From Bradyrhizobium sp. CCBAU 53421 (GTDB lineage: Bacteria > Pseudomonadota > Alphaproteobacteria > Rhizobiales > Xanthobacteraceae), in assembly GCF_015291625.1 (NCBI RefSeq), contig NZ_CP030047.1, positions 7,812,001-7,876,000 on the forward strand: a stretch of DNA of 64,000 bases. The letters run 5' to 3'. The notes under the pieces were generated by a model that had not been told where the DNA came from, made no database searches, and was given only the letters and a program-made list of their open reading frames with translations. Below are positions 10,602-28,278 of the stretch, piece after piece. The first letter of the stretch is position 1, and each line of letters starts with the position of its first letter. The translations under genes and the position numbers were made by a program.

Positions 10602-11768
10602 TCACGACAGCGGTAACTTGGGATCGAGCTCCTCCTGCTCGACAGTTTTGGCGCCTTCTTGGGCGAGATATGCGGCAAGTTCTGCGATGCAGGACTCTGC
10701 CGGGCATCGCGCCGGCGCGCCCTTTCTCGGCGGCACCTGTCCCGACCGCTCGGCGATGTCGACGCTCATGAGGTGCGGACGTAGCAGACGTCCGAAAGCG
10801 CGCTCGATCGTGTGGAAGATCCAGGTTCCGTCCGGATCGATGTCCGACCAGTGGAAGATCGGTGTCTGTGGCGACACCATTTCGCCGATCACGCGCAATG
10901 CTTGCTGGGTAGCGAGCGAAGGATAGCCCCCCACATACAACGTCGCGCCAAGTCGATCGGGATCGGCTTCAGTGATATGCCTGTTGAAGCTCGCGAAGTT
11001 TTCGATCGTCAGGACGTACGCCGGGGGCTTGCGGAAGCGAATGCGATCCGCCTCCTTTGGTGCGATCCCGAGATAATGCGGACAGATGCTGGACAGATCG
11101 GCCCCGTCGAGATCGATCTGCCCCGCGATCAGGAGCGGAGGCGCGAAGCGCTCCAGGCCGATCGTCCGTAGCGCCTCCCGAGGGCGGGCGCCGGGCGGCA
11201 ACTCAAGGATTCCGCCGAGGAGACGGACCACGGCACCCTCGACGTGTTCCAGCGCCTTGCTGTCACCCACGATCTTCCGCGAGAATGTTTTGTAATCCAC
11301 GTCGAGGTGTTTGCCATCGAGAACCGCCTGAGCGAGGGCAAATGCACCCCGCAGCTTGTCGACGTCGGACGCGAAGAAGCCGTGCCAGCTCTTCCCTCGC
11401 CCCCAAGCGTCCGCGATCGAGGAGACTGGCTCCGCCAGGCGACCGTCGAGGGCGAGGCCAGCGACGAGGCGCGTTCCGGCGTCCCGCGCGATCTGGGATG
11501 ATGGGATGCGACCGAGGTGGTGGTACAGGGGTTCGGCGGCCTGGAGCCTGACATGCGCAATCTGGTCCCGCCTGGCTCCGCGCCCCCGACCAAGAATGAC
11601 GGCGCCGATTTCTTCGGCGAGCGCAACCTGCTTCAGGAAGGCGTCGGCGGCGACTACGGAAGGAAACGCGTCGTAGTCCGGATGCGCGATGGGACTCGCG
11701 GCTCCGCCTTCATAACGGTCCAGCAAGTCATTGAGCAGGCCGGTTGCGTCGGTGAAGCGGCGAGCCAT
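10602..11768 (-). CDS. jetD: Wadjet nuclease subunit JetD (Toprim-like)
   Basis: 388 residues, two bases downstream of jetC, last gene of jetABCD. In Wadjet systems JetD is the topoisomerase-VI-like/Toprim nuclease that cleaves circular plasmid DNA after the SMC complex has extruded it. The C-terminal half shows the expected Toprim pattern: an acidic 'ENFASF' strand followed by 'HWSDIDPDG' (about residue 305), i.e. the Glu and DxD metal ligands, so it should be active. The N-terminal half ('DATGLLNDLLDRYEGG') is the family-specific DNA-binding arm. The length is normal for the family (about 380-400 residues). The order, strand and spacing with the other jet genes make the call secure. Confidence 0.9.
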   Translation of the reverse strand: MARRFTDATGLLNDLLDRYEGGAASPIAHPDYDAFPSVVAADAFLKQVALAEEIGAVILGRGRGARRDQIAHVRLQAAEPLYHHLGRIPSSQIARDAGTRLVAGLALDGRLAEPVSSIADAWGRGKSWHGFFASDVDKLRGAFALAQAVLDGKHLDVDYKTFSRKIVGDSKALEHVEGAVVRLLGGILELPPGARPREALRTIGLERFAPPLLIAGQIDLDGADLSSICPHYLGIAPKEADRIRFRKPPAYVLTIENFASFNRHITEADPDRLGATLYVGGYPSLATQQALRVIGEMVSPQTPIFHWSDIDPDGTWIFHTIERAFGRLLRPHLMSVDIAERSGQVPPRKGAPARCPAESCIAELAAYLAQEGAKTVEQEELDPKLPLS

Positions 11769-11770
11769 GG

Positions 11771-14700
11771 CTATTCAGCGGCGAGTCGGCGAGCGAGGTC
11801 GTCGTCCGACATCAGGTCCGGATCGATTGCCATGAGTTCGCGTTTGGCTTTCTCCTTCAGCGACACAACGGTCGCTCGCGATTGCTCGCCGATGCGGTCC
11901 ACCTCCACGATCGTGTCCATGTGCTCTAGAACCGCGACCCGCTTCTCGAACGGGGCTGCGATCACGAACTGCAGGCCGAGGTTCTTGTAGAAGCTCATCA
12001 TCTGGCGCTGGTTCTTGCCGTCCATCTTCGAGAACGCCTCGTCGAACATGGCGAGCGCGAAGCCCACCGGCTTGCCGGCACGCCGCTCGGCGCTGCCGTA
12101 GACGGCTGCGAGCGAGGCACCGATAGCGACATAGATAGGCACCTGTTGTTCGGCTCCCGACCCGGTACCGCGCCGCTGCTCCCAGCGCGTCTTGCGGCCA
12201 GTGACGACGTCCTCCATGTGGATCTCGAAGGTGTAGAAGTTGCGGTAGTCCTCGAACTGCGTGAAATCTTTCTCCTTATCTTCCAGCAACGCTTCGAGTG
12301 CCAGGATCGTGTCCTTGTGCGGGAAGTCTTCCGGCACGTCGCCGCGGAACAGCATGTCCAGCGCCTCCGGAGACGTCCTGGCGATCTCGATGATCTTCAG
12401 AATAGGCTGAAATTCGACGACCTGCGCGCTGTGGAACGAATACCTCTCGTTATGGAAGGGATGCGCCTCAAGGCTCCGATTCAGGGACCGGAGCTCCCGG
12501 TCCATCTTTCCGATCCGCGCAGTCAACGCGTTGATGAACTCGCCGCGCAACAGGGTCGAGGCCTTCTCCGCCGCTTCGCGGGCCTGACGTTCATATTGAC
12601 GCAATTCGTTGGATTCTATGTCGGCGATCTGCTGCGCCATCCAAGGCTGCACCTCCTGGAGTGGCTCGCTCTCGACGCCGATCTGGGAGCTGATAGTGAA
12701 CTCCTCGAAGAAGCCGCTGAGGAATTCGCGCACCTGCCGTTCGATTCTGATGCGGTCGTCGTTGGCACCCTCGGCATCCTTGACGGCCTTATCGGCGATG
12801 GCGCGATGCCGATCGACCTCGTTCCTGCTCGCGCGGCCATCGAGACGCGCCCGGTAGACGGGCCTGCCTTTCGCCACCGCATATAACGGCAGGTTCTTGA
12901 GGAACAGCGCCCAGGCGATACGCAGGTTGAGCTGCGAGCCCGGCACGTTTTCGCCGTCGCCGAGTCTTTCCTTTGCCCTATCCGCTTCGCTGCTATGCCT
13001 GTTGTAGAGGATCTGCTGGGCCTCGCGTGCGTCAGTCCTGATCTGCTTGAGGTTCAGCTGGGCGGTCTTCTTGTCGCGGAGACCGCCGTCGCCGGCCTCG
13101 TCCAGGGCGGCGAGCTTTGCCTGCGCATCCGCCCATTCGGACTGAGCCGCCGCGAAAGCCGCGGCGCACGTCTTCAAGTCGCCCGCCGGAGAATCGCACA
13201 GAAGCTTCAACGCCAGGAAGGCGCTCTCGGCGAGTTGGGCCTCCTTCGCCGCCGGCTCCAGAGACTGATCGAGGTCGTCCGCCTGCTCTTGCAAGACGCG
13301 CAGCGCGTTCTGCTGCGCCGTCTTGCCAATCTTGTGCTCCGAAGCATTGATCGACCGGTGACTGCGGACCAGGCCGTCGTCGTAGAGGCCATCCTTCATG
13401 ATGGCGCGGCCGGGCCTATAGAACTGATCCAGCGTGTCCGCCAGCCGCACGGAACCGTAACGGCGCATGATGAACGACAACGCGTCCGGATCCTGCGTAC
13501 GGAAGATCGACGGAAACGTTCCCCGCTCCGGCTTGGCTCTGAACTGCTCCAGCTTGTTCAAGCTCACCAGAGACGTGCGCCGGAATTCGCGCCGCCCTTC
13601 CTTGAAGATCGCAGTCGCCGCGCCGATGTCCGCTCGATCGACGAATACCGCATCGCGGTCGCGGCCGAGGAGCGCTTCGGCAGCCCCCGTCCATTCCGGA
13701 TCGGCAACTTCGATCAGTTCACAGAGTACCCGCGGCGCCATTCCCTTCTGCCGGAGCTTCAGGCAGAGCCGCTCGGTGTCAGGCTCAAGATGCGCCCGCG
13801 GTCCTCCCGAGGAGTGCTGGCGGATCCGCTCAAGCATATCGTTTCGCTGGCTGCGAAGAGCGGAAAGCCGCGCAATGAGCGTCTGGCGCGCCTCGTCGAG
13901 CTGCACGAGCCGCTGCACCCCCATCGCCGTCACGGCGGCTTCTGCCGAGGACTGTTCGTCAGAAACGCGCTCAGCCGATGCGGCACCGACGGCGGCGAGC
14001 AGCCTGTCCACGACTGCAATGAGATCGTCGAAACCGCGCCCGTGCATCGCCCGCAGTGGCTCCAGCCGCCGGATTGTTTCGAGGCGCGCCTTGAAGTCGG
14101 CCGCCGCACGCTGCACCGACTGTTCCGCGACGGCCACCGCCTGGTGGAGGCCCTTCCTGCCGGTCTTGGCGTCGTGCTCGGCGATGGCCTCCGTAAGCCG
14201 CTGGAGTTCGGTGTCGATACCCTTGATATCCTCCTTCAAGAACTTTAGCTCTTCAGCCGCCGCATCGCGCTGCGCGACCGCGCTCCGGAGCTTGCTCCTG
14301 AAGTCGCGGTTGATGGCGCGAGCCGCGAGCCACTCCGCACGCTTGGCAATCCACTGTTCGCGGAACTTGGTTTCCAGCGCTTCTTCCAGGGTCGCGAGGA
14401 TCGACCGTAGCTGCTTGAGCGCCTCCAGCTTGAGCCGCATTTTCTTGATAGTGTCGCTGATGTTCCGGTAAGTCTGGATCGACTCGCGCAATTCCTTGAT
14501 GCCGATCGGACTGTCCTCGAGGATGTAGTTCCGCACGAACTGCGTGGCGGTCTGGTTGTGGTCGAGCGTCATAGCGTTGACGATCGATTTCTGCAGCGCG
14601 GCGGCATTCTGTTCGCCGTACGGCGAGTGCGGCAGGAGATGGCGCATGTACTCGCGGACGTAATCGCTCGCCCGGTCGCGGTGATTGACGAAATTGCCTT

Positions 14701-15208
14701 CGCCCACGGCCGCGACGACGCGTGCGCGCACGTCCTCCCATTGTGCGGGAAACAACGACTTTCCGCGCTGTTCGATAAAATCCTTGGACGTAAGCGTCGC
14801 GCCGACCGTGATGAACAGCGCCAGTACGGTCTCACGGCTATCGGATTTGCGGGCCTCGAGCGCCATACCGATGGTGATCGGCGGCCGAACTCCGTCCGTG
14901 TCCTCGAAGCTAAGAGCGACGTAGGTCCGCGCTTCGTCGCGGCGACGTTGGTCCTCGCCGAGCGTGCCGAGGCAGTAGTCGACCACGCTGCGCTTCGAGG
15001 CGCTGCGCGATTTTCCGCCGTCGCCGGCAACGGCATTCAGACGCAGGAAACGCCGGCTGCCGCCCGTCAGGACGACCTGAGCCATGTCGAGGATCGTCGA
15101 CTTGCCGGAACGGTTCTCGCCGAGCACGCCGACATGGGCGTTCACCTCGATGTCGGCCACGTCGAACAGGTGCCAGTTCACCATCGTGAGGCGGCGCAGC
15201 TCCATCAT
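11771..15208 (-). CDS. jetC: Wadjet SMC-like ATPase JetC
   Basis: 1145 residues, start ATG 15208 overlapping the jetB stop by 4 bp (ATGA). It has the SMC/MukB-like layout: Walker A GENRSGKST at residues 31-39, long coiled coils (about 240-480 and 640-950) around a hinge-like middle, and near the C-terminus a signature-like 'RGTGSGAEQQ' (about 1014) and Walker B with 'AMFDEAFSKMDGKN' (about 1050). Known role of the family: the dimeric motor that extrudes DNA loops and detects small circular DNA, working with the kleisin JetA and the KITE-type JetB, and delivering DNA to JetD. All ATPase motifs are intact, so the operon looks functional. Confidence 0.93.
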   Translation of the reverse strand: MMELRRLTMVNWHLFDVADIEVNAHVGVLGENRSGKSTILDMAQVVLTGGSRRFLRLNAVAGDGGKSRSASKRSVVDYCLGTLGEDQRRRDEARTYVALSFEDTDGVRPPITIGMALEARKSDSRETVLALFITVGATLTSKDFIEQRGKSLFPAQWEDVRARVVAAVGEGNFVNHRDRASDYVREYMRHLLPHSPYGEQNAAALQKSIVNAMTLDHNQTATQFVRNYILEDSPIGIKELRESIQTYRNISDTIKKMRLKLEALKQLRSILATLEEALETKFREQWIAKRAEWLAARAINRDFRSKLRSAVAQRDAAAEELKFLKEDIKGIDTELQRLTEAIAEHDAKTGRKGLHQAVAVAEQSVQRAAADFKARLETIRRLEPLRAMHGRGFDDLIAVVDRLLAAVGAASAERVSDEQSSAEAAVTAMGVQRLVQLDEARQTLIARLSALRSQRNDMLERIRQHSSGGPRAHLEPDTERLCLKLRQKGMAPRVLCELIEVADPEWTGAAEALLGRDRDAVFVDRADIGAATAIFKEGRREFRRTSLVSLNKLEQFRAKPERGTFPSIFRTQDPDALSFIMRRYGSVRLADTLDQFYRPGRAIMKDGLYDDGLVRSHRSINASEHKIGKTAQQNALRVLQEQADDLDQSLEPAAKEAQLAESAFLALKLLCDSPAGDLKTCAAAFAAAQSEWADAQAKLAALDEAGDGGLRDKKTAQLNLKQIRTDAREAQQILYNRHSSEADRAKERLGDGENVPGSQLNLRIAWALFLKNLPLYAVAKGRPVYRARLDGRASRNEVDRHRAIADKAVKDAEGANDDRIRIERQVREFLSGFFEEFTISSQIGVESEPLQEVQPWMAQQIADIESNELRQYERQAREAAEKASTLLRGEFINALTARIGKMDRELRSLNRSLEAHPFHNERYSFHSAQVVEFQPILKIIEIARTSPEALDMLFRGDVPEDFPHKDTILALEALLEDKEKDFTQFEDYRNFYTFEIHMEDVVTGRKTRWEQRRGTGSGAEQQVPIYVAIGASLAAVYGSAERRAGKPVGFALAMFDEAFSKMDGKNQRQMMSFYKNLGLQFVIAAPFEKRVAVLEHMDTIVEVDRIGEQSRATVVSLKEKAKRELMAIDPDLMSDDDLARRLAAE

Positions 15209-15843
15209 GCGTCATCTCCCGTCGTCTGCGGCAGCCGAGCTTCCTCGCTCCGAACGTAGCGCTCGAGCCGCTGAAGGGCGTCGCCGCCGCTTATCAGCTT
15301 GATCATCGGACGGAGCCTGACTTCGCAGTCCTGCTGCTCATCGTCGAAGTCGCCGATCTCGATGAGGCTGCGCTGGGCCGCCTCGCGCAGGATGTCGCGG
15401 AAGCGTGCCGGCGAGATCGCGCCTCCGCCGCTGTGCTGAGCCATCTCCCGATAGCGGTCGAACAGGTCATTCAGTGTGGCGACGACGACCGCGCGGTCTT
15501 CGACCGCTCCGACGTTCACCTCCTGCTGCCAGTACGCCGCCAGCACCAACATCACGATGGTCTCGTCGAGCTTCATGCGGGGCAGCGGAACGTCCTCGTC
15601 CATGGCGACGATGCCGGCCCATTGCGCTTCCGGATCGCGATGGACGCGGAAACCGCAACTGTCGAAGAAGCCGTCGATCACGTCGCGAAAGCGACCGTCC
15701 ATGATCGTGTTGTAGACCGTCCCGGTACGGGGGTCGCCGGCAAACACGAACTGCCGCCGCAGCAGGAAATGCAGCGCCTTCCGGAGATCGGCCGCCTTTT
15801 CCGAGCCGGCAGATCGTTCGATGTTCTCGAATTCACTGAGCAT
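15205..15843 (-). CDS. jetB: Wadjet KITE-like subunit JetB
   Basis: 212 residues, second gene of the operon, overlapping jetA by 11 bp and jetC by 4 bp. It corresponds in size and position to the DUF4194-type JetB subunit, a tandem winged-helix (KITE/MukE-like) protein that bridges the kleisin and the SMC heads. Family-like features are the helical N-terminus, 'ALHFLLRRQFVFAGDPRTGT' and the final winged helix ('FRDILREAAQRSLIEIGDFD'). No catalytic motif is expected or seen. The call depends partly on synteny with jetC and jetD. Confidence 0.85.
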   Translation of the reverse strand: MLSEFENIERSAGSEKAADLRKALHFLLRRQFVFAGDPRTGTVYNTIMDGRFRDVIDGFFDSCGFRVHRDPEAQWAGIVAMDEDVPLPRMKLDETIVMLVLAAYWQQEVNVGAVEDRAVVVATLNDLFDRYREMAQHSGGGAISPARFRDILREAAQRSLIEIGDFDDEQQDCEVRLRPMIKLISGGDALQRLERYVRSEEARLPQTTGDDA

Positions 15844-17362
15844 TTGCCGCCCTCTCCTTGCGGAACGCGCCCGACCGCGTGACCACGAAGTTCGCGCAGC
15901 TGAGCCATTCGCTATCGTGCGGCGGCGTGTCAGGCGAGGGAGCTAGATCAAAGCAGGCCCCGATCTGTGGCGGCACTTCGCCGGTCAGTGCGTAACGGCG
16001 GGCGCAATCGAAGGCGAGGAAATCATCGACGGTATCGATCTCCATGAAACGGGCCTCCTTCGTCGCGAATGGAGGTACCTGCTCTTCGAGAAATCTCCTG
16101 ACGTCCTCCGGCCGGGGCGCGATACGGGCGATGTACTCCAGGCGAAGCTGCTTGCGCAGTTCGTAAAGCGGATCCGATGGCGGCGCGGCGAGCTCCCTGG
16201 CCTCGACGGGGCGTCGGGGCTGCCTCGCCGGTGCCTGATGATGTTCCGACCACGGCGACCGCATCGGCTCGATGCTCCACTCTACGGTCGCCTCGCCGTG
16301 CCTGCCGCTGCGCAGCAGTGCGTCAAGCCGGCGCACCAGGTCGCCGGCGCGGCCGACGAGTCCTTGTGCTCCGCGCTCGGCGTACTTGATGGTGTTGCGG
16401 ACGCGCGCCTCGAGCTGCCTGCGAAAGGCCTCGATCCGTTCGAACATCTCGCCGATCTGCTCGAAGATGCTTTCGACGGCCAAGAGATCGTCCGCCGCCG
16501 CCATCCGCCCGTCCTCGACGTCGGAAGCCATGCTGTTGGTGGCGTACTCTTCCGCGAGCACCTGCATCGTCTCGGGCGTGTAGGAAATCCGCCGCGCGAG
16601 ATCGACGATCGCATCGCGGAACCGGTAGGGATGATTGACGGTGAGGATGGACTCGAAATCCTTCAGCAGCAACTGGTCCACGAACTCCTCGAAGAACGCC
16701 TCAAGGCGAGTGCCGACGGTCTTCGATTCCATGACAGTCCGCCGGATCCGTTTGAGATCGGCGAGAATGGCGCGCAGGCTCTTGGTGAACTGGTCGGCCT
16801 GATTGCGCGCCTCGCGGACGGCCAACGCAGCTTCGCGCTGCTTGCGGTCGGTGATTTGCGGAGTGAGCTTTTCGACTGCCTCAAGATTCAGTCGGATCTG
16901 GACGATGAGACCGCCGAAGCGCTGCGAGAGGTCCTTGTTGAGGCTCGCCAGCCGCTGGATGACGAGCAGCGGGCCCATGGCCATGTCGACCGTGACCCGG
17001 AGCCCGTATTCCTCCTCTTCGAGCCATCCCCAAGCGACGAGCCGAGCGTATAGCTGGCGCGCCATTGCGAGCGCCTTGTCACCCCTCTCGGAGGCGAACG
17101 CGACATCCGCCTTCCTTATCCGACGGCGCCCCGCCGATACCATCTCGGGCAGACTGCCGAAATCGTCACCTTCGCTCCATAACGTAGTATTAGCCCGCAT
17201 GACGTCGTAGATCGCGTGAACGACCTGCTGCGGGGTCGGAAACGCCGGCGAGCCGGTGAAGTATCGTTCATGGAGATCGAGCAAACAAGCCGCGTAGAGG
17301 TGCTTGTGATCTCGCGAAAAGGCCAAAAACGCGTCGTCATGCAAATGGCGGAATAAGGACAA
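15833..17362 (-). CDS. jetA: Wadjet kleisin-like subunit JetA
   Basis: 509 residues, first gene of jetABCD. The start appears to be TTG 17362 ('MSLFRHLHDDAFLAFSRDHK'), with AAGGAG nine bases upstream. A helical N-terminal half, a central coiled coil ('DQFTKSLRAILADLKRIRRT') and a winged-helix-like C-terminal half fit a MukF-like kleisin. The N-terminus does not look like the DUF3375 type I JetA I remember, so this may belong to another Wadjet subtype (perhaps type III); that assignment is uncertain. Role in the family: closes the SMC ring and binds JetB and JetD. An inverted repeat lies directly upstream. Confidence 0.85.
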   Translation of the reverse strand: MSLFRHLHDDAFLAFSRDHKHLYAACLLDLHERYFTGSPAFPTPQQVVHAIYDVMRANTTLWSEGDDFGSLPEMVSAGRRRIRKADVAFASERGDKALAMARQLYARLVAWGWLEEEEYGLRVTVDMAMGPLLVIQRLASLNKDLSQRFGGLIVQIRLNLEAVEKLTPQITDRKQREAALAVREARNQADQFTKSLRAILADLKRIRRTVMESKTVGTRLEAFFEEFVDQLLLKDFESILTVNHPYRFRDAIVDLARRISYTPETMQVLAEEYATNSMASDVEDGRMAAADDLLAVESIFEQIGEMFERIEAFRRQLEARVRNTIKYAERGAQGLVGRAGDLVRRLDALLRSGRHGEATVEWSIEPMRSPWSEHHQAPARQPRRPVEARELAAPPSDPLYELRKQLRLEYIARIAPRPEDVRRFLEEQVPPFATKEARFMEIDTVDDFLAFDCARRYALTGEVPPQIGACFDLAPSPDTPPHDSEWLSCANFVVTRSGAFRKERAANAQ

Positions 17363-17423: not shown

Positions 17424-17929
17424 CTTATGATCTGCCGGGGAATGCTCTAGTTGACGTGTATCACGGGGCGTGCGCAACCCGGAGGGATCAGTTCATGGTA
17501 TGTTCCTCTATAACGTGCCGAATGGTCCCTGTCGAGACTCCAAATGTCGAGATCGCGCCCGCACGCCGGCAACATCAGCAAAAGTAGTCTGGAGATGGAT
17601 TGAAACCGATGACATCCCTAAGGAAATTCGAAACAGACTGCCCAAAGACTTGGTCTGCAAACCGTGTTGTTTGGCCGGCATCGAAGGACACGCCAGGCGA
17701 TTTTTCGCTCCCCCGGTTCGTCACCGCATCTCGCGCGACGCCGGTTCGGCGAACGGGTGTAGGAGCCTCATGTGCTGGCTGTCCTTCAAAATCCGCCTAC
17801 CGTCGGTTCGTGCCACGCGGGGGTCGGCCTCGATCGCCGCGGCGATGACATTGCATGGCGGAGCCGACAGCCCAAGATACCGACAGAATGCATTGGCCAG
17901 TGCATCTGTCGAAGCGTTGCGCAAGTATA
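17424..17929. other. debris between the Wadjet operon and a recombinase remnant
   Basis: No intact gene. On the minus strand, 17924 to 17721 carries a protein-like frame of 67 codons ('DALANAFCRYLGLSAPP', 'RRILKDSQHMRLLHPF') that begins exactly where the recombinase remnant stops making sense. It may be a fragment of an unidentified gene joined by a past recombination. Confidence 0.4.
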
Positions 17930-18606
17930 GTACCGATACCGGCCTGACTTACCGGTACGGAGCGTCATGCCGCCGCCGCAGCTTGCGCAGGTCGCAATGC
18001 CCGTGAGGAGGATCGGCCCCGTCACCACGCGCGGAGGCGTTGCTTTCGGATTTTTGGCCTTCAGCATCGCCTGCACGGCATCGAACGTCGCAGCGTCGAT
18101 GATGGGATCAACGGCGACCGCGACCTGATCGGCTTCAGGCTTGGCCTCGCGCGTTTTCCAGACCTTGCGGTTGAACCGGTGCTCGCCCTTATAGGTCGCG
18201 CGGGTCAGGATTTGATGCAGCGGGCCAATGCCCCAGCGCGCACCGACGCGCGTGCGGTAGCCGTGCTCATTCAGCCAGCAGGTGAGAGCCTTCACGCCCA
18301 TGGGGCCGGATGTGCCGTCACCCTTGAGGAAGAGCTTGAACATGAGACGCACGACTTCGGCCTCGACCGGATCGATGGCGAGGCGCTTCTTCGTCTTCGC
18401 GCCGCGCTGTTCGGCATCGATCACCGCATAGCCGTAAGGCGCTTTCGATCCGTTCCAGAATCCCTGACGCGCATTCTCCTGCATCGCGCGCAAAGTATGC
18501 TTCGCGTTCTCCTTCGATTGATACTCGTCGAACAGCGCGAACACCTGCCGCACCATCACGCTCATAGGATCATCGCCGAGATCCTGCGTGATGCTGACCA
18601 GCCTTA
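17930..18606 (-). pseudogene. large serine recombinase, middle fragment
   Basis: The minus-strand frame reads from 'LVSITQDLGDDP' through the recombinase domain ('QSKENAKHTLRAMQENARQG', 'KAPYGYAVIDAEQRGAKTKK', 'ATYKGEHRFN') to the zinc-ribbon half 'CASCGGGMTLRTGKSGRYRY' followed by 'YTC'. This is the middle of a Tn3-resolvase-fold large serine recombinase. The catalytic N-terminal domain is absent (the frame ends at about 18606, where a different truncated gene begins on the other strand), and after 17930 the sequence no longer matches the family. It is a dead fragment and a clear recombination scar. A C-terminal remnant of a similar protein lies at 35.1-35.65 kb. Confidence 0.85.
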
Positions 18607-18607
18607 G

Positions 18608-19114
18608 GACTTTTTAGAGGATATCATCGTTCGACATAGCGGCTCAAAATATCAGGTTGATATCGCGGCACGGTACAGCGCCTTCGTTCGCGGATCAGCG
18701 CATCCGCTCAAAGTGCCGCTCTTGATTCCCGAACTTCGATTTGAGGGACGCGCCAAGGCGCACAAGTATCGGTTGGATTTTTGCATCATCGACGGATCAA
18801 CGATGCAGAAAAAAGGCTTCGAGCTGTCGCCTTGGTCCAGCCATGGCAAGCTCACGGCGACAAAGGGCAAACTTCAAAAGGACATCAACGCGGAGGCAAG
18901 TGCGAATTTCGACAAGGAAATGGCCAAGCATAAGGCCTATTTCAAGAAGCATGGCATCTTTGCCTCGATTTTCACCGATGCCGATCTGATAGATATGGAC
19001 AAGGTCTGGGCCTACATTGCCGACTTCCTCGAACCGAAGGAGGTGATGGCGCAAATGAATCTTCACCTTCGGAACAATTTCTTTAAGAATAAGAAAAAGC
19101 CACGCAAACCGTAA
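18608..19114 (+). pseudogene. truncated gene, C-terminal part of an unknown nuclease-like protein
   Basis: An open frame starts right at the junction (18608, 'DFLEDIIVRHSGSKYQVDIA') with no start codon or ribosome-binding site, so this is a 5'-truncated gene of about 168 codons. Visible features are 'KYRLDF' followed by 'GFELSPWSSHGKL', i.e. D-x(n)-E patterns that could be a PD-(D/E)xK-type core, and a basic tail 'NNFFKNKKKPRKP'. A GTG at 18713 could give a 133-residue product, but the remnant interpretation is preferred. I do not recognise the family with certainty. Confidence 0.55.
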
Positions 19115-19125
19115 AGATTGGCCGA

Positions 19126-19743
19126 TTAGGCCGCCGTCTGGCGCGCTGATTTCGGGAGGCTTGGGCATTTCGCTGCCCATTCAGGGCCTATGAGGCCCGT
19201 AACCGAAAGAACGAGCTCGGGCGGCACGCGCATTCTTGCCGCCGTGAGCGCTTTCACCAAGGCATCGGCCTGTCCGTCGGCTCTCAGGCCGTCGGCAATC
19301 AGATCGTGGATCAGAAGCTCTGCGGTGCACAGCACCGGAAGTTTGGGAAAGGAGCTTCGGCAGATCGCTCTTGCCTTCCGCTCGTCAATGAGAGCAATTC
19401 CTGATATTTCATAGGCACAAGCTATCGTGGCTGCCTCTCCGTCGTCTAGCGTAGCGGCGGTTGAGCCATCGATAAGGGATTCGTAAATCCGTGCCCCGGT
19501 GGATTGTACCGATAGCGTTCGGATGAATCCAGCATCGGCGAGTTCCAGAAGGCGGTCATGATCGCGGTGCCCCTTTGTCGATCCGTTCGCCAACTCGAAA
19601 GAAGCGTTCTCTGTCACAAAGAAGGGGCTTCCAAGTGCGTTGATGATGTCAGCAGCACGGCCCGTTGCATTCAGATTAATGACAACGCTTGCGTCGGCGA
19701 CGAGTGCTATGTGTGGACTAAGGGGAAAGCTTGACGAGTTCAT
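19126..19743 (-). CDS. PIN-like nuclease domain protein
   Basis: 205 residues from ATG 19743, overlapping the end of the XRE-ImmA gene by 26 bp, last in a four-gene operon. The fold pattern fits a PIN ribonuclease: 'LVADASVVINLNATG' near the N-terminus (first catalytic Asp), 'LDDGEAATIACAYE' in the middle (acidic residues) and 'IALIDERKARAIC' (third Asp). PIN proteins of this COG2405-like type usually cut RNA, often as toxins, and are often encoded beside an XRE-metalloprotease regulator, as here. Start choice: translational coupling to the preceding stop; an earlier upstream ATG exists in frame. Confidence 0.7.
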   Translation of the reverse strand: MNSSSFPLSPHIALVADASVVINLNATGRAADIINALGSPFFVTENASFELANGSTKGHRDHDRLLELADAGFIRTLSVQSTGARIYESLIDGSTAATLDDGEAATIACAYEISGIALIDERKARAICRSSFPKLPVLCTAELLIHDLIADGLRADGQADALVKALTAARMRVPPELVLSVTGLIGPEWAAKCPSLPKSARQTAA

Positions 19744-20896
19744 TCGCTTCGCTTTCTTCAGTTTCCACACCATCAAGAAGCACTCTCACCTCGTGACGAT
19801 CCAGATGGAGCAGACGCGCAAGCTGCCCCTCGCTGTATATTTCCTTCTTCGATGCCTCTCGCGCAAGCAAGGCTAGTCTGGGCGGCACAGCTCCTTGCGC
19901 GCGAGCAGAATAGGTCTTCCGGTCCGGCAATTCGCCTAGTACCTGACAGACCTGATCGTCGGTAATCCCACCATTGGCAGTGAACCAGTCCCAGGTGCCC
20001 TCACGCGCTAGCTTCAGCTCCTCAAGACGCCGGACGATAGCTTCTCGTGATACGTGCAACGCGTGCGCGAGAAGGATGATGTGACGCCGCGTCAAATGAG
20101 ACTGACCTGCCGTGATCTCCGCGAAACGTTGTCGGACGGTCCGGGCGGGCATCGTAAAGGATCGCTGGAAACAGTTAGCGTATCGCTCCTCTCGCGACGT
20201 GAACCGCTCGTCCTCAGTAAGCACTTCCGGCTGACGCCTCGTCGAGATTAGATGCGCGGCCTCATGCGCTCCGGTTTGATTCAGGCGTTCCGGGGGATGA
20301 TTGGAGTTGAGTAGAATACAAGCGCCCGCCGACTCGTCAAAAGCAAACAAACCGGAAACCTTGCCATCCAGAGGCCGCACGTAGACGCGGACGCCGAGTT
20401 GCAAGTCGAGAATGGACACAATGTCGGTGATTGGACCGGGGCCAAGTCCCAGCCAGTCTCGTAACTCCTGAGCATCCTGCTCCGCCTGAGCGCGCACGTC
20501 TCCAGGCAATATGGGGCGTTCGGGCGGATAGTTTCGGGTGCGGGTTACGCCGAGCGCGTTTTCCAGCTCCAATTCCGCGCGGACTAGGTCGTTCAACAAT
20601 CGGGTCGCCCGTTCGACCCCACTGTCCTCATTTTCTGCAAGCTTGCGGAAGCGGGGAATCATATCGAGATGAACGGCTTCGCGGCGCAGCAACGCGTTGG
20701 CCGAAGTGCCGTAGATGTTCGCAAGCTTTTGAAGTTCATCGATCTGGACGCGTCGCTTGCCTTGTTCAATGGCTACAAGGGTGGTTCGCACCACGCCGAC
20801 CTGCGCAGCCGCATCTGCCTGAGTAAGCTTTGCGCTTTCGCGCGCGACTCGCAGCCGCTCCCCGATTTCCACGTCCGTTAGCCGTTCACCGCTCAT
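19718..20896 (-). CDS. XRE helix-turn-helix / ImmA-IrrE metalloprotease fusion
   Basis: 392 residues from ATG 20896, which overlaps the stop of the QueC-like gene by ATGA (a longer frame starts 18 bases earlier). Residues about 10-70 are a Cro/XRE helix-turn-helix ('ERLRVARESAKLTQADAAAQ'). Residues about 150-270 are an ImmA/IrrE-type zinc peptidase with the HExxH signature 'GAHEAAHLISTRR' near 212. The last 120 residues are a helical tail. Family knowledge: such COG2856 proteins repress their own operon and are relieved, or cleave a partner repressor, under stress or infection. The palindrome upstream of the operon (22858-22868) is a candidate binding site. Confidence 0.85.
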   Translation of the reverse strand: MSGERLTDVEIGERLRVARESAKLTQADAAAQVGVVRTTLVAIEQGKRRVQIDELQKLANIYGTSANALLRREAVHLDMIPRFRKLAENEDSGVERATRLLNDLVRAELELENALGVTRTRNYPPERPILPGDVRAQAEQDAQELRDWLGLGPGPITDIVSILDLQLGVRVYVRPLDGKVSGLFAFDESAGACILLNSNHPPERLNQTGAHEAAHLISTRRQPEVLTEDERFTSREERYANCFQRSFTMPARTVRQRFAEITAGQSHLTRRHIILLAHALHVSREAIVRRLEELKLAREGTWDWFTANGGITDDQVCQVLGELPDRKTYSARAQGAVPPRLALLAREASKKEIYSEGQLARLLHLDRHEVRVLLDGVETEESEANELVKLSP

Positions 20897-22266
20897 TGAC
20901 TTGCCCGCGTCCACTTCCTGATGAAGGAGCGCGCTCCCAGATCATTCACAAAGCTGTTCCACTCTGCGGCATGCCGTTCAAGCATGCCTATAAGATTTTC
21001 TTCGGCATCCTCGGCTGATAGCCCAAGTGCCATTCCGGTCAACACGGCGTGACGGCGGACGGTTGGACGAGCATCTTCCTCTGCCATATCTGCCATGTGA
21101 TCAAGATGGAGCGTTCCAGCGATGGCGTACTGCTCGAAGGCCGCGCTTTTTCGTTGAAAGTCCGGATGGATTGCTTCGGCAAAGGTAGGAGCTCGCAAGT
21201 CTTCGCAGATATACTTTCCCGGCTCTTCGCTAAGGCCCGCCGCGTGCACGCTCATTCGCCTCAACATGCAGGCCGCGCATACGCCGCATTGAAGTTTTCT
21301 TTTGTTAAGCGCGCTCCAACGACTGTCTCGCCAGCACGACTTCGTGTCTCTCCAGGAATCACCCTCCGGCATAGCTGCAAATTCGCGCAGCGTCTCTCCC
21401 TTGGTATTCCAGAGGCGAGGAAATTTGAATTCAACCGCATGGCCCGTGAGCGCATTCAAGAAGCGGCTCATCAGTCGCGTGAACCTCGGGTGGTTCCGGT
21501 AGTCCGGATACCCATGATTTACAGTCACTAGCGCCGGGCCAATTGCACCTTGCCCGCTTTCGGGAATAAGAATGTCGCTTGCGTTCGTCAGATAGGCCGC
21601 AAGGCCACTGATCAGCGCGAACTTGAAACCGCGGCTTCTTGCCGTCGTTTCTCCGTTCGTTAGAGCTGATTTGAATTTGTACGGCACTCTCGTGAAAGGC
21701 TGCAATCGTCCGTCGACAACAGGTTTTCCCGAAGCCTTAGCGCCGACGCGCACGCGAACAAGTTCTTTTCCGAGCGTCTTTCCAAGAAGCCCGGCCACAG
21801 CTCGCGAGTCCATGCCGTCGCTGTATGCGATAACGGCTTTCGTTGGCCGAGGGATCTGCAGGCACTCTTGCGCCGGAGAGGGTTCGGTCTTAGCCCGTTT
21901 GACGAACTCAATCTCCCAAAGATCGCCGGTCAGGAATCCCAACACTTCGTGCAACGATCCTGAAACGGAGGTATCGCTCCAGCGCATTGGATCGTGCACG
22001 GGGATGCGCAGTTCAATTTTTCGGGGCCAGCCTCGCGCCGGACGCTTGATGGCGCGATCAGAAAACTCGACCGCGGCGGCGACGACCATTGCGTCGTAAA
22101 TCATCGGCTCCCATCGCGCGAACGCGAAGGATCGCAGGGCATCGGTGCTGAACTCAAGGTCACGATTGAGCTCAAGTCCGATACGGCCTTTCCGAGGGCG
22201 GCGACCCGCCTCAACCACATCAACCGCTCTTTCACTGATCTTCGGCTTGTAACACGTAATGGTCAT
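20893..22266 (-). CDS. QueC-like PP-loop ATPase (QatC/Cap9-like)
   Basis: 457 residues from ATG 22266, overlapping the upstream gene by ATGA. The centre has a PP-loop ATP-pyrophosphatase motif SDGMDS ('VIAYSDGMDSRAVAGLLGK', about residue 148). The C-terminal half carries 'KLQCGVCAACMLRRMSVHA' (about 327), matching the zinc-binding Cys cluster of QueC, the 7-cyano-7-deazaguanine synthase. A 120-residue N-terminal extension ('DAMVVAAAVEFSDRAIKRPA') is not part of housekeeping QueC and resembles the defence-associated QueC homologues (QatC of QatABCD, Cap9 of type IV CBASS). No queD, queE, queF or tRNA-guanine transglycosylase is nearby, so tRNA queuosine synthesis is unlikely. Inference: activates a carboxylate with ATP to modify a protein or nucleotide in a defence pathway. 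Confidence 0.8.
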   Translation of the reverse strand: MTITCYKPKISERAVDVVEAGRRPRKGRIGLELNRDLEFSTDALRSFAFARWEPMIYDAMVVAAAVEFSDRAIKRPARGWPRKIELRIPVHDPMRWSDTSVSGSLHEVLGFLTGDLWEIEFVKRAKTEPSPAQECLQIPRPTKAVIAYSDGMDSRAVAGLLGKTLGKELVRVRVGAKASGKPVVDGRLQPFTRVPYKFKSALTNGETTARSRGFKFALISGLAAYLTNASDILIPESGQGAIGPALVTVNHGYPDYRNHPRFTRLMSRFLNALTGHAVEFKFPRLWNTKGETLREFAAMPEGDSWRDTKSCWRDSRWSALNKRKLQCGVCAACMLRRMSVHAAGLSEEPGKYICEDLRAPTFAEAIHPDFQRKSAAFEQYAIAGTLHLDHMADMAEEDARPTVRRHAVLTGMALGLSAEDAEENLIGMLERHAAEWNSFVNDLGARSFIRKWTRASQ

Positions 22267-22820
22267 AGTGGCGGTCCTTCATCTATCCCCGACTGGCGAG
22301 GCAGCGTAACTGACCGCTGGGAGGGCAGTTTAGTAAACGACATGAGCTCTCGGGCGAGACCTCCGCAATCGAGCTGCTGTCGGGCCCCGTCTAAGCGGAC
22401 CCGAACGAACCCGGCGCTGCGGGAAGAAGCCTCGCGTTGATAGTGCTCTTCAATGCCGCGTATGTGGTCGCGTGCCGCGCCTTCCAACGCATTCGCCAAG
22501 GCAGCTTCGGTAGCGGTCTCGCCGCTCAGTCCCACGGCGACAGCTTCGATTGCGCAGTCGATAAGCTGGTGCGTCGCTGCAGAGCCATAGTGGCCTTGCC
22601 TTAGCACCTCCAGTCTTTCGATCGTCATATCTGGAAACAGGGTGCCACCTCCCAAGATATCCCGGACCTCGCCGATTGGTGCGCTCAGAATGTCCTTCTT
22701 GAGCGCATGAGGCAGTCCTTCCGCAACCTGATCCGACGAGAACGCCGCTTTCGCTGCTCGCTCGGCTAGGTCCTTCCAATGTCTCCTCATGGGGAGACTT
22801 CTGTGCGGTCCATCGCTCAT
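22263..22820 (-). CDS. unknown protein, first gene of the QueC-like operon
   Basis: 185 residues from ATG 22820 ('MSDGPHRSLPMRRHWKDLAE'); a TTG four codons upstream and an ATG ten codons downstream are alternatives. It is coupled to the QueC-like gene by a 4-bp overlap. The protein looks soluble and mostly helical, with a small Gly-rich turn ('DILGGGTLFPDMTIERLEVL'), and no cysteine cluster or catalytic motif is evident. I do not recognise it. In this position a protein of this size could be the substrate or scaffold that the QueC-like enzyme modifies, as has been proposed for small partners in related systems; this is inference only. Confidence 0.65.
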   Translation of the reverse strand: MSDGPHRSLPMRRHWKDLAERAAKAAFSSDQVAEGLPHALKKDILSAPIGEVRDILGGGTLFPDMTIERLEVLRQGHYGSAATHQLIDCAIEAVAVGLSGETATEAALANALEGAARDHIRGIEEHYQREASSRSAGFVRVRLDGARQQLDCGGLARELMSFTKLPSQRSVTLPRQSGIDEGPPL

Positions 22821-22857
22821 CGGGGGCTCCAATGTCAGGACTATACTAAAAGAATAG

Positions 22858-22868
22858 TGACAATGTCA
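22858..22868. promoter_or_regulatory. palindrome TGACAATGTCA in the divergent promoter region
   Basis: A perfect 5+1+5 dyad in the AT-rich 185-bp gap between the QueC-like operon and the divergent fic gene, 38 bp upstream of ATG 22820. Half-sites of this size are typical of XRE-family repressors, and an XRE gene is in the operon, so autoregulation is a reasonable guess. Confidence 0.45.
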
Positions 22869-23004
22869 AATCTTATGAAGTGGATGATTTTCACAACTTA
22901 AGAATTGAGCGTAGATTTTTCATCTACTAAGATAGATTTTCCGAACCTGGCCTCTCTGGTGAAGAAAATTCGGAGAGCGGAGAAGATTTTTCAGAGGAAA
23001 TACA

Positions 23005-24552
23005 ATGAGCGTTGAATTTTCAGGATCGGTGAGCGTTTTTCACGACAGGCGATTGCCTGAGCCCGGTGTCCCAGCGGGTTATGCCGCGCTTATTGGAGCT
23101 TACAGGCTCTCCGTCCCAGTACCCCGAATCCTTTCAGCCATAGGGACCAAGCACCGGAGCGTTGAACAGAATGGTTGGCGCATATACACGCCGCGCCATG
23201 CTCCCGAAGCCTCGCTTGAAGGACACCTGACTTTTGCCCTCAAGAATGAAGGACTCGACCTTGCTATCCTGAAGCGACTTTTCCTCGCGGTCAAAGAGGG
23301 AGATGTCGCGGAGCTTGTCCGGCAGAAGCCTACCGGCATTTACACACGCCGTATCTGGTTTCTGTACGAGTGGCTGCTTGGCCGCGAGCTAAAGCTGTCG
23401 CTTACAGACAAGGTCTCATATGTGGACGCGGTTGATACAGATATCCAGTTCGCGGGGACAGGAGAGAATTCAGCTCGGCATCGCGTTCGCAACAACCTTC
23501 CCGGCACTCCGGAATTTTGCCCGCTCGTTTTCAAGACGCCTGCGCTGAACGAATTCATCGCGCAGGACTGGAAGGAGCGCGCGCGCGCAGTCGTAAGCGA
23601 AGTTCCGAAGGATTTGCTCGCGCGCACGGCTGCTTTCCTGCTGCTGAAAGATTCAAAGTCCAGCTACGTCATCGAAGGAGAGAGGCCGCCCCAGGATCGT
23701 ATTCAAAGATGGGGCCGCGCCATCGGCGAAGCCGGGCGGGCGCCGCTTGACGAGCAAGAATTCCTGCGTCTGCAAGGCATTGTCATCGGAGACGAGCGTT
23801 TCGTGAAGCTTGGGTTTCGGCAGGAAGGGGGCTTTGTCGGTGAGCACGACCGCGATACGCAGCGGCCTATCCCGGACCACATCAGCGCGAGGCATGAAGA
23901 CATCGCCCATCTCATGACAGGATTGATCGCATTCGACCATGCCGCAGAAAGCGAACTCGACCCCGTTATCGCGGCAGCGGTGCTCGCATTCGGCTTTGTC
24001 TATATCCACCCGTTCGAGGACGGAAACGGACGTATTCACCGATATCTCATGCACCACGTTCTTGCGCGGCGCGGGTTCAATCCGGCTGGCGTCCATTTTC
24101 CGGTGTCGTCGGCAATCCTTGACCGGATCATTGAGTACAAAGGCGTGCTGGAAAGCTACTCAAGCAGGCTACTTCCCTGCGTTCAATGGGAAGCGACTCC
24201 AAAGAACAACGTGAAGGTCTTGAACGACACCGGGGATTTTTACCGCTTCTTCGACGCGACCCCTCACGCGGAATTCCTATACGAATGCGTACGGCAGACA
24301 ATCGAGCAGGACCTTCCAAACGAGACAAGCTTCCTTCGCAACTTCGATGCGTTCCGGTCCGGAGTCGAAAGCATCATCGACATGCCGGAGCGAACGCTGA
24401 ACAATCTGTTTGGCTTTCTGCGGCAGAATCAAGGAAGGCTTTCAAAAAGGGCGCGCGAGAACGAATTCGCCGAGCTCACCCAGGATGAAGTTGCCAAGGT
24501 TGAGCAATTGTACGCGGACTCCTTTGGCCAAAGCGGAGCCGCAAGTGACTGA
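23005..24552 (+). CDS. Fic family protein with N-terminal extension
   Basis: 515 residues from ATG 23005 with AGAGGAAA upstream. The Fic core HPFEDGNGRIHR is at about residue 335, with the 'flap' region and inhibitory helix visible earlier ('SSYVIEGE', about 220, fitting [S/T]xxxE[G/N]). Unlike the shorter Fic protein at 8.7-9.9 kb, residues 1-190 form an extra domain ('GYAALIGAYRLSVPVPRILS'), and a helical tail follows the core ('LTQDEVAKVEQLYADSFG'). Catalytic His and acidic residues are intact, so AMP or another nucleotide group could be transferred. It is divergent from the QueC-like operon and 45 bp upstream of the NlpC/P60-like gene, probably co-transcribed with it. Confidence 0.88.
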   Translation: MSVEFSGSVSVFHDRRLPEPGVPAGYAALIGAYRLSVPVPRILSAIGTKHRSVEQNGWRIYTPRHAPEASLEGHLTFALKNEGLDLAILKRLFLAVKEGDVAELVRQKPTGIYTRRIWFLYEWLLGRELKLSLTDKVSYVDAVDTDIQFAGTGENSARHRVRNNLPGTPEFCPLVFKTPALNEFIAQDWKERARAVVSEVPKDLLARTAAFLLLKDSKSSYVIEGERPPQDRIQRWGRAIGEAGRAPLDEQEFLRLQGIVIGDERFVKLGFRQEGGFVGEHDRDTQRPIPDHISARHEDIAHLMTGLIAFDHAAESELDPVIAAAVLAFGFVYIHPFEDGNGRIHRYLMHHVLARRGFNPAGVHFPVSSAILDRIIEYKGVLESYSSRLLPCVQWEATPKNNVKVLNDTGDFYRFFDATPHAEFLYECVRQTIEQDLPNETSFLRNFDAFRSGVESIIDMPERTLNNLFGFLRQNQGRLSKRARENEFAELTQDEVAKVEQLYADSFGQSGAASD

Positions 24553-25920: not shown

Positions 25921-28247
25921 TTGGTGAGTGGAGGTCTTTTTCTTGACCCGAGCGGCGCAACGAAGAAGCAACGTCTTGGATCCGGCGCAGCTAGTCCGGA
26001 TCGAAGCCGTGCATCGCGGCTTCATTTTTTTCAGCATCTGTACACTGTACAGTGTCTGCTCTCGGCAACCGCGTTGTCGATAGAGAGCGTTGAGGTCGAG
26101 AGCGATGAAGATGTCGAGGTGCAGTTTAATGGGCGGCGCATCTACGTCCAGGTGAAACACCGGAAAGAACCGCTCGCCTGGAACGATATCGACGAAGCTG
26201 TGGCGCGCTTCGGAGAATTGCGCGCCGCTCATAAGCGTGGTGAACGCCAGGGAGAACCGGGATTTCTCATCGTCAGCAACGCAGCTCCCAACGGCCCTCT
26301 CGCCGCTAGGCTGGCCGCGGCGGACTGGCCGAACGATGTGCGGGTCGATTGGCCATCGGCCGATCCAGAAAAACGAATCCTTCCGGCGCCGCAATCATCG
26401 CTTGTCGAAGCGGCGGAAGCAGCGAGCAGAATGGCTGTAAAGTTGCCGTTCGCAACTCTCGCGCCTGAGACTCTCGTTTGGAAGCTTGCTGGCCTGATAT
26501 CTCTTGCCGCGACGGGAGAGGACGCGAATTTAGACCACAGCTTCCGGGCTGGAGAGCTTCCCAACCTTTTTGAACAGCTCGTAATACAGTTGCAGGATCT
26601 GCCACTGCCCCCATCTCCCTATCGGGTGCAGGAGCAGGAGCCCAACCTTTTGACGGGAGAAAGGGTCAGGCTGATTGTCGGCTATTCGGGGGCAGGCAAG
26701 ACATCGTGGCTGGCACAGTCTGCTCAACATGCCCCGGGCACTTTGATCTATCTCGATGTGGCCGATACACCCGGCGCGGCCCTCGCCAATGCCGTTGCCC
26801 GAGAAGTAGCTGGTCGGCTGTTTCAGACGGGGGGCCTTGGCCAAATCCTTCTGCCTGGCGCGTCCGGGCGAGAAATCCTTCAGCTTCTATCCCGCCGTCT
26901 GGCGGAGCGCGGAGAGATTGTCACTGTTGCCCTCGACAATGTTCACCAGTTGCCTGCCGATGATTTGATGGGGGTGATCCAGTCTGGGAGAGACATGCGC
27001 TTCGTACTTTTGGGGCGCGCAGAAGGCGAAGTCTCCACCCTTGAGACGATTCTCGGCGTCACCCGTGAGGCCCTCCTTGGTTGGGCACCAGACACAGTAG
27101 CGGCGGCAGCCCATGATCAAGGATGCCAAAGTGATGCCGCCACTTGCCAGCGATTGATCGATCTCACCGGTGGCCTTCCGCTTTTCGTTCTGAATGCAAT
27201 CTCCGTTGCAAAATCCGACTATGGTGGTTCGCTAAAGCAATTCTGTGCTGATCTTGCTCGATCGGCACACACCCGGGAAGTCGCCCAGGACTTCATCCTC
27301 GGTCGGGTTTTTGACCGGTTGCCAAAGGCAGTGGCTGACGTGGCCGAAATGCTAAGCCTTTGCGATGCACCACTGAGGCGCACGGAAATACAGGCCTATA
27401 TTTCAAGCGCCGGCGGGTCCGATCAGGCTAACGCCGACCGGGCTTTTCGCCACTTGATGAGTCAGGGTCTGCTGCAGGTGTTTGCCGACGACCGGATCAA
27501 GCTTCACGATGCGGCGCGCGCCGTAGGCAAAGGACGATTGCTTCTCCGCGGCGCTGAGAGCGTAAAAGCGTCCCGGGAAACCCTTCGAGCTGTCGTACAG
27601 AAGAGCCTTTTAGAGAGCTGGCACCCGGCGAAGCTATCGCTGTTCCTCCGGCTGAGCGGAGAGGTCGGTCGCCTCGATGTTTTGGTCGAAATGGCTACAG
27701 ACGAGCTCTTCCATGAAATGGGTGTCTGGCCCGAGGTTGAAGCTTTCCTCGAACACGGCGTGCAGAATGAGACTGTTCCGCCTGATCAGCGAATAAAGGC
27801 ACTCGACGGACTGGCATTTGCCGACCTTAAGTCTGGCTCTGATCCCGCTGTTTTATGGCTCGATCAAATGGACGCTCTGATCACGGCCCACAATCTTGGC
27901 GCTGAGGAACGGCTGCGCGTCGGCATGAAGCGAATGAACTTTTTGGCTGGCAAAGGCGACCGGCGCGGCGCTATGCGTCTGGTGACGGAACTCACGCCCG
28001 CCGTTAATGATCTCTCTTCCGGTCATCAGCGCGTGTTTTGGTATAATGTCGCATGTGCGGAGCTCGCACTAGGGGACCCGAAATCCGCAGAGAAGCGGGT
28101 TCAGTCTCTCATCCAAGACTACTACAAACTGATCGGCCTGACACCCGAGATGGTGATGGGAAACAATGCGCCCGAGCTGCAACGGATGCTAAAGGACGGG
28201 GCGGACATCGACGACATTAAACATCTCGCGGATTCCCTTGACGTACT
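25921..28247 (+). pseudogene. STAND NTPase with N-terminal nuclease-like domain, 5' part (cut by IS66)
   Basis: Starts at TTG 25921 or GTG 25924; there is an in-frame stop at 25906 and no ATG nearby. About the first 100 residues resemble the DUF4297/Cap4-type PD-(D/E)xK domain ('DEDVEVQFNGRRIYVQVKHR', Q-x-K). A P-loop NTPase follows: GYSGAGKTSW (about 254), Walker B-like 'VTVALDNVHQLP' (about 338), then winged-helix and helical-repeat sequence. Such NACHT/STAND proteins act as single-protein phage sensors that activate the nuclease. At 28247 the frame runs into IS66 and stops at TAA four codons later. Joining 28247 to 31370 restores the frame exactly (2892 bases, 964 codons including stop). 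Confidence 0.85.
28240..28247. repeat. IS66 target site duplication, left copy
   Basis: GACGTACT, identical to the copy at 31362-31369. Eight bases is the normal duplication length for IS66. Confidence 0.95.
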
Positions 28248-28278
28248 GTAAGCGTAGCTCTGCGGCCCTTTTGATTGA
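28248..28278. repeat. IS66 terminal inverted repeat, left
   Basis: Starts GTAAGCGTAGC; about 25 of 31 positions match the reverse complement of 31331-31361. Confidence 0.9.

Follow-up and report, generated by a model that had tools for sequence, protein, structure and literature searches.

The window analysed here is a stretch of 64,000 nucleotides from Bradyrhizobium sp. CCBAU 53421 (contig NZ_CP030047.1, positions 7,812,001 to 7,876,000), and our subject is an operon of four called open reading frames (ORFs) within it, all on the minus strand between 19126 and 22868 and numbered in the order of transcription. Gene 1 (22263..22820) starts with an ATG at 22820, its stop ends at 22263, and it encodes 185 residues. 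Gene 2 (20893..22266) encodes a QatC-like PP-loop enzyme of 457 residues. Gene 3 (19718..20914), starting with either a GTG at 20914 or an ATG at 20896, joins an XRE helix-turn-helix (HTH) to an M78/ImmA-IrrE metalloprotease, and gene 4 (19126..19743, start ATG at 19743, alternatively TTG at 19776) encodes a PF11848 PIN-like nuclease. Genes 1 and 2 overlap by 4 bp, genes 2 and 3 by 22 bp with the GTG start or 4 bp with the ATG start, and genes 3 and 4 by 26 bp, counted from the ATG of gene 4. An original prediction, made from the letters of the window, had described such an overlapping four-gene operon with an SDGMDS motif, a Cys cluster, a HEAAH motif and PIN-type acids. All of these are present in the sequence, and we regard the anatomy as read here as almost certain.

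The arrangement recurs far beyond this genome. Scanning one genome per species with an alignment of gene 2 gave 139 relatives, of which 80 loci were kept; in each, ORFs were called by script and then scored with profiles. Genes 1, 2 and 3 are present in 80/80 loci and gene 4 in 78/80, always in the same order and on the same strand. In the two exceptions the locus stops at the contig end (L029), or gene 4 begins and then breaks off (L047). L009, L064 and L074 each have one gene divided between two frames, and gene 1 of L005 has an apparent frameshift near its end. The original prediction had called for a search for conserved gene order across genomes; order and strand kept over 80 loci argue that the arrangement is not due to chance. 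All four genes are likewise found in 8/8 plasmid loci, L103 having its gene 1 in two frames, and in 7/7 loci of the host genus, at least some of which come from genomes already among the 80. Within 146 genomes of that genus, host included, gene 2 occurs in 16 and gene 3 adjoins it in the same 16, one further genome giving a weak partial match, while gene 1 was detected in 13 genomes, each of which also has gene 2. One genome of the genus (G084, contig 201, 6893-8256) has gene 2 in two overlapping frames with genes 1 and 3 matched in full alongside, a break that may be natural or may stem from a sequencing error. Among the carriers are Alpha-, Beta- and Gammaproteobacteria, Geomonas, Acidobacteria, Chloroflexota, Gemmatimonadetes, Planctomycetales, Nitrospinota and Entotheonella, several of them as metagenome bins. 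The nearest named relatives of gene 2 are from Bradyrhizobium, and a search of viral contigs for relatives of gene 2 found none.

The promoter region is conserved as well. Upstream of gene 1 a -35-like box, TTGACA (22864..22869), and a -10-like box, TATAGT (22840..22845), can be recognized by eye 18 bp apart on the minus strand. The -35-like box is overlapped by an operator-like palindrome, TGACATTGTCA (22858..22868), which occurs in a single copy in the window. A second half-site, TGACAT (22832..22837, minus strand), an arrangement seen again in many of the promoters listed, lies just ahead of GGAG (22827..22830, minus strand), read from the sequence as the ribosome-binding site of gene 1; a Shine-Dalgarno-like element precedes gene 1 in 66/79 loci. 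Across 80 stretches of 200 bp upstream of gene 1 (the window's own and those of 79 loci) TGACANTGTCA is found exactly in 67 and with at most one mismatch in 75, where shuffles averaged 0 and 0.32. Outside these stretches the palindrome appears once in 1,197,515 bases of the same loci, compared with 73 sites inside. The plasmid copies L085 and L100-L102 have TTGACTTTGTCA at the operator position, and the Pseudomonas loci L058, L059, L061-L063, L065 and L071 carry two full palindromes 30 bp apart instead of one and a half-site. Since only gene 3 of the four has a recognized DNA-binding domain, its product is the likely repressor, and autorepression at the palindrome is, judging from the sequence, very probable.

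Profile scores and architecture place gene 2 with QatC and not with the free-standing QueC enzymes. It matches the NCBIfam QatC model with an E-value of 1.1e-35 (123.4 bits, below the curated cut-off of 280) and canonical QueC (TIGR00364) with 5.5e-5 (22.9 bits, short of the cut-off of 150.3), and it carries the N- and C-terminal extensions and the overall fold of QatC. The predicted QueC-like enzyme with an extra N-terminal domain thus needs amending: the domain is there, but the enzyme is QatC-like and the domain is part of the QatC architecture. The active site is conserved, and its motifs comprise the PP-loop SDGMDS, the stretch Y253-P-D255-Y-R-N-H-P and the cysteines C311/C327/C330/C333. 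D255 is kept in 80/80 loci and Y253 in 75/80, in a YPD setting as in canonical QueC. A divergent subtype (L113-L115, from the host genus) has a QatC-like RTTHP stretch instead of Y-x-D-Y-R-N-H-P and has lost the Tyr/Asp pair.

Gene 1, for which 316 homologues were found, belongs to no Pfam or PADLOC family and has no NCBIfam match close to a cut-off. Its predicted structure is all-helical (AlphaFold2 pLDDT 91.1, pTM 0.85). The window's protein starts with MSDGP and has a conserved C-terminal tail, GIDEGPPL. MSDGP stands at the start of gene 1 in 80/80 loci, directly after an ATG (77) or a GTG (2) in 79 of them and also after an ATG in the split copy of L064, and it stays fixed while pairwise identity of the whole protein drops to 21%. 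Among the eight plasmid copies five begin with MTDGP, two with MSDGP and L083 with MRDGI; the same-genus copies L113-L115 begin with MRDDI. At the other end G[VIL]DEGPxL is kept among close relatives. The original prediction had imagined a glycine or carboxylate terminus of this protein entering the enzyme's active site, and we considered the carboxyl end as the activated group. However, the final residues vary and often run on beyond the conserved tail, so that the invariant N-terminus is judged the likelier end to enter the active site of gene 2. We propose gene 1 as both partner and substrate of gene 2. A strict coupling between residue 2 of gene 1 and residue 253 of gene 2 was rejected, because 5/80 loci lose the Tyr yet keep Ser2; Arg2 accompanies the loss of the Tyr in L083 and L113-L115, which is a hint only.

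The other half of the operon is a putative toxin-antitoxin pair of a known kind. Gene 3 has an XRE HTH at residues ~16-80 (Pfam HTH_3) and a Peptidase_M78 domain at 172-298 with HEAAH at 217-221, and its metal ligands H217, E218 and H221 are kept in 81/81 aligned sequences. It matches the PADLOC families RmrA (E 2e-24), capP (1.3e-12) and capH (7.6e-9), and 23/41 homologues show a UPF0175 match near the C-terminal end at E<=0.1 (best 6.9e-6). From these domains we propose gene 3 as an autorepressor and protease-antitoxin. For gene 4, PF11848, which we take to be DUF3368 of the PIN superfamily, is assigned in precomputed annotation to the window's own record and to all 120 relatives listed of 2361. 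Numbered from the TTG, residues D28, E61, D112, E114 and E132 are present in 79/79 sequences and D131 in 76/79. The Pfam PIN model itself matches gene 4 homologues weakly (8/36, best E 0.0026); compared with three PIN/VapC proteins gene 4 gave one match, in register (E 0.0048), and nothing with the other two, and PDB sequences gave none at E<=1. We propose gene 4 as the toxin, and an HTH plus M78 protease antitoxin beside a toxin-type gene is the composition of RosmerTA-like XRE-ImmA/PIN pairs.

Like QatB-QatC, the operon has a QueC-family enzyme with the same terminal extensions and overall fold (PMC13279940, PMC13329287), a small helical partner directly upstream with an invariant N-terminal motif, and a presence on plasmids and in defence neighbourhoods. 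Unlike qatABCD, it is without QatA and QatD, the small partner falls short of QatB in length and shows no detectable homology to it, and XRE-ImmA and PIN come as obligate companions, together with a conserved operator. Gene 1 begins with M[ST]DGP and QatB with MGTS (PMC13279940); gene 2 keeps Tyr/Asp where QatC has Thr/Thr, and the PP-loop reads S[DE]G in the gene 2 family and SGG in QatC. Searching the ORFs of the 80 loci with models of QatA (built from 6 sequences) and QatD (from 8) gave nothing at E<=1e-3, and the predicted absence of QatA and of a TatD nuclease therefore holds within these stretches. As in Cap9 of type IV CBASS, the deazaguanine-binding Tyr/Asp is kept and the partner has a fixed N-terminal motif, the MGTS of QatB and the MGGS of the type IV CBASS CD-NTase being comparably fixed (PMC13279940). 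Cap9, however, is minimal, at about 185 residues, and lacks the QatC-type extensions of gene 2, and its partner is a nucleotidyltransferase, which gene 1 does not resemble; no cyclic-nucleotide component was seen here. Gene 1 matches no CD-NTase, Cap9 or Cap10 family, and none of these is among 25 families listed for 110 flank proteins, a check that does not extend to distant genes. The claim that the partners differ from those of Qat and CBASS was borne out, with XRE-ImmA and PIN in their place.

Similarly, ImmA-type RosmerTA and NetFlax systems use an HTH plus ImmA protease antitoxin, for which PIN-like partners are known, and the PADLOC name RmrA is linked to RosmerTA (PMC10440598); here, by contrast, every locus examined has the pair joined to a QatBC-like one. 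Two toxin-antitoxin types described in 2009 are Xre-COG2856 fusions beside PIN and UPF0175 paired with PIN (PMC2701414). The PIN-like gene 4 and gene 3, with its Xre and protease parts and the UPF0175-type tail seen in many homologues, resemble both, but three antitoxin-type parts are united in one protein and the operon has four genes including a QueC-family enzyme. CapH-CapP also places an XRE repressor and an ImmA/IrrE-type protease before or within a defence operon (PMC10904395), whereas the two are fused here, in many homologues with the antitoxin-type tail. The original prediction had put the system forward as its best candidate for an undescribed one, and among the best matches listed in open-licence PubMed Central full texts we found no description of an operon combining a QueC-like enzyme with XRE-ImmA and PIN. 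Since qatA or qatD lies near only about 34% of the QatC cluster of PMC13329287, members of the present family may sit there unremarked. What appears to be new, in that we did not find it described, is the obligate union of two halves of known kind, along with a partner that starts M[ST]DGP, the retention of Tyr/Asp by a QatC-like enzyme, and the operator.

Our reading, plausible but held tentatively, is that the operon is a mobile anti-phage module in which a QatBC-like pair is coupled to a protease-antitoxin and a PIN toxin. Gene 3 dimers would bind TGACANTGTCA and keep transcription low, and the tail of gene 3 would hold the PIN nuclease. At the expense of ATP, gene 2 would join a small carboxylate to gene 1, at the Ser/Thr that becomes N-terminal once the Met has been removed, and gene 1 thus modified would be the form able to act as sensor or adaptor. 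During infection this form would switch on the gene 3 protease, perhaps together with single-stranded DNA (ssDNA); the protease would cut gene 3, which would release the nuclease and lift repression of the operon, and the infected cell would stop in an abortive response. The modification of the gene 1 N-terminus by gene 2 seems to us somewhat favoured. The coupling of this pair to genes 3 and 4, for which we draw on obligate co-occurrence and analogy, is more tentative and possible rather than probable. The original prediction, of a module that would monitor a QueC-type modification and release a nuclease, is partly supported.

Several observations weigh against this reading. In the divergent subtype gene 1 starts with MRDDI or MRDGI and should retain its Met, so that not every gene 1 would have an N-terminal Ser/Thr. 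Comparison of gene 1 with QatB detected no relation in sequence (E 0.075, which alone says little either way) or in fold. UPF0175 gives a weak match, and the annotation of the window's own gene 3 does not list it. Ten of the 42 isolate carriers discussed below show neither QueC over its cut-off nor QueE, against the only chemistry proven in defence for the enzyme family. Finally, QatBC alone defends against some phages, lambda among them (PMC13279940), and genes 3 and 4 therefore need not be the output. This last point leads to the strongest rival, which we consider unlikely but take seriously: gene 3 is only a regulator, a fused CapH-CapP cut on ssDNA, genes 1 and 2 are antiviral by themselves, gene 4 serves as an additional effector or as an addiction toxin that the tail of gene 3 holds, and gene 1 sends gene 3 no signal. 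The conserved palindrome over the promoter, the gene 3 matches to capP and capH as well as RmrA, and the cleavage of CapH by CapP in the presence of ssDNA (PMC10904395) all fit it. However, the gene 3 subfamily stands with genes 1 and 2 in 16/17 same-genus matches, which is more than a swappable regulator needs, and many homologues carry the antitoxin-type tail.

A second rival concerns the chemistry. QueC and Cap9 hold deazaguanine with a Tyr/Asp pair that QatC lacks (PMC13279940), and the conservation of D255 and Y253 in gene 2 would lead one to expect 7-carboxy-7-deazaguanine (CDG) as its substrate; gene 2 would then conjugate CDG from the host queuosine pathway to the gene 1 N-terminus as in the NDG modification. 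In support of this, the host encodes QueC, QueD and, adjoining QueD, QueE, all distant from the operon. We counted the pathway in 42 isolates picked from the 80 loci, the other 38 being mostly metagenome bins, and found QueD in 34/42 and QueE in 28/42; a single-protein search for QueE (28/42) was too insensitive and was replaced by the TIGR04508 model. QueC exceeds its cut-off in 13/23 carriers tested, which is not a rate, as the 23 were chosen mostly for absent or weak QueE in the single-protein search. The ten that fail the QueC cut-off have QueE in 0/10, compared with 28/32 of the remaining carriers. Six of the ten also lack QueD, and nine retain the Tyr/Asp pair. The four QueE misses among the 32 (L008, L011, L037, L060) all have QueC, which indicates that the QueE model is incomplete. 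The carriers seemingly without CDG may hold idle copies, obtain CDG from elsewhere or have been missed by the models, or else the attached group is not CDG. These counts, together with the loss of the pair in L113-L115, weaken CDG as the substrate. We lean towards a group other than CDG and regard Cap9-type chemistry as fairly doubtful.

According to a third rival an ordinary XRE-ImmA/PIN pair hitch-hikes with the QatBC-like pair and stabilizes it by addiction, the two pairs being mechanistically unlinked. Xre-COG2856 fusions next to PIN are a known toxin-antitoxin type (PMC2701414; NetFlax, PMC10440598), yet addiction partners would be expected to be exchanged, and the same subfamily is found in 80/80 loci across phyla. 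The pairwise identities of the four genes also co-vary (Spearman 0.60-0.73), although shared history alone could give the same, and we judge this rival improbable. That the operon serves queuosine or another deazapurine pathway, as the label 7-cyano-7-deazaguanine synthase in database records would have it, is extremely improbable, given that the host QueC, QueD and QueE lie elsewhere, that gene 2 falls far below the QueC cut-off, and that partners are toxin-type and surroundings defensive.

These surroundings include a complete Wadjet set in the window (10602-17362), with JetD (10602-11768), JetC (11771-15208), JetB (15205-15843) and JetA (15833-17362) all on the minus strand and strongly matched in PADLOC. 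Flank proteins of isolate loci (n=110; 110 of 223 usable models) matched AbiEii (7), AbiEi (4), PDC-S24 (4) and GajB (3), and plasmid copies adjoin a Shedu gene and an Eco57I-type methylase gene. When 621 flanking proteins within 4.5 kb were clustered, the largest family occurred in no more than 9/80 loci. A defence function of the operon is in our view probable. Elsewhere in the window a 1935-residue protein (104-5911, plus strand) matches PDC-S37 (E 3.7e-146) and Hhe (8.6e-70) in PADLOC and has a PD-T4-6-like N-terminal stretch; a 455-residue ORF directly after it has no PADLOC match. A Fic protein (23005-24552, plus strand; PADLOC PDC-S24, E 1.2e-205) is divergent from the operon. A serine-recombinase remnant (17786-18565, minus strand) has Recombinase and zinc-ribbon domains with no match to a resolvase N-terminal domain. 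Convergent with gene 4 lies a 133-residue ORF (18713-19114, plus strand) that reaches no family cut-off, and a 776-residue protein (25921-28251, plus strand) has a weakly LmuA-like N-terminus and an AAA-type middle.

According to PMC13279940, it is still an open question what reaction QatC catalyses and by what route a QueC-type modification restricts phages. In this context, the operon could represent a third kind of QueC-based immunity, an idea we consider speculative and rather unlikely as a whole: a group other than CDG would be placed on the Ser/Thr of gene 1, and the modified protein, with no nucleotide messenger, would directly switch gene 3, derepressing the operon and freeing the PIN nuclease. 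The family is widespread and well defined and yet barely marked by the annotation libraries used, in which the operon yields no more than an RmrA, a QatC below threshold and a weak PDC-S70. It offers a second, smaller version of a QatBC-like pair with a likely output, the protease-antitoxin and nuclease, and with its own operator as a reporter, which makes the readout directly testable. Carriers that seem unable to make CDG suggest, moreover, that CDG may not be the only group a QueC fold can place on proteins.

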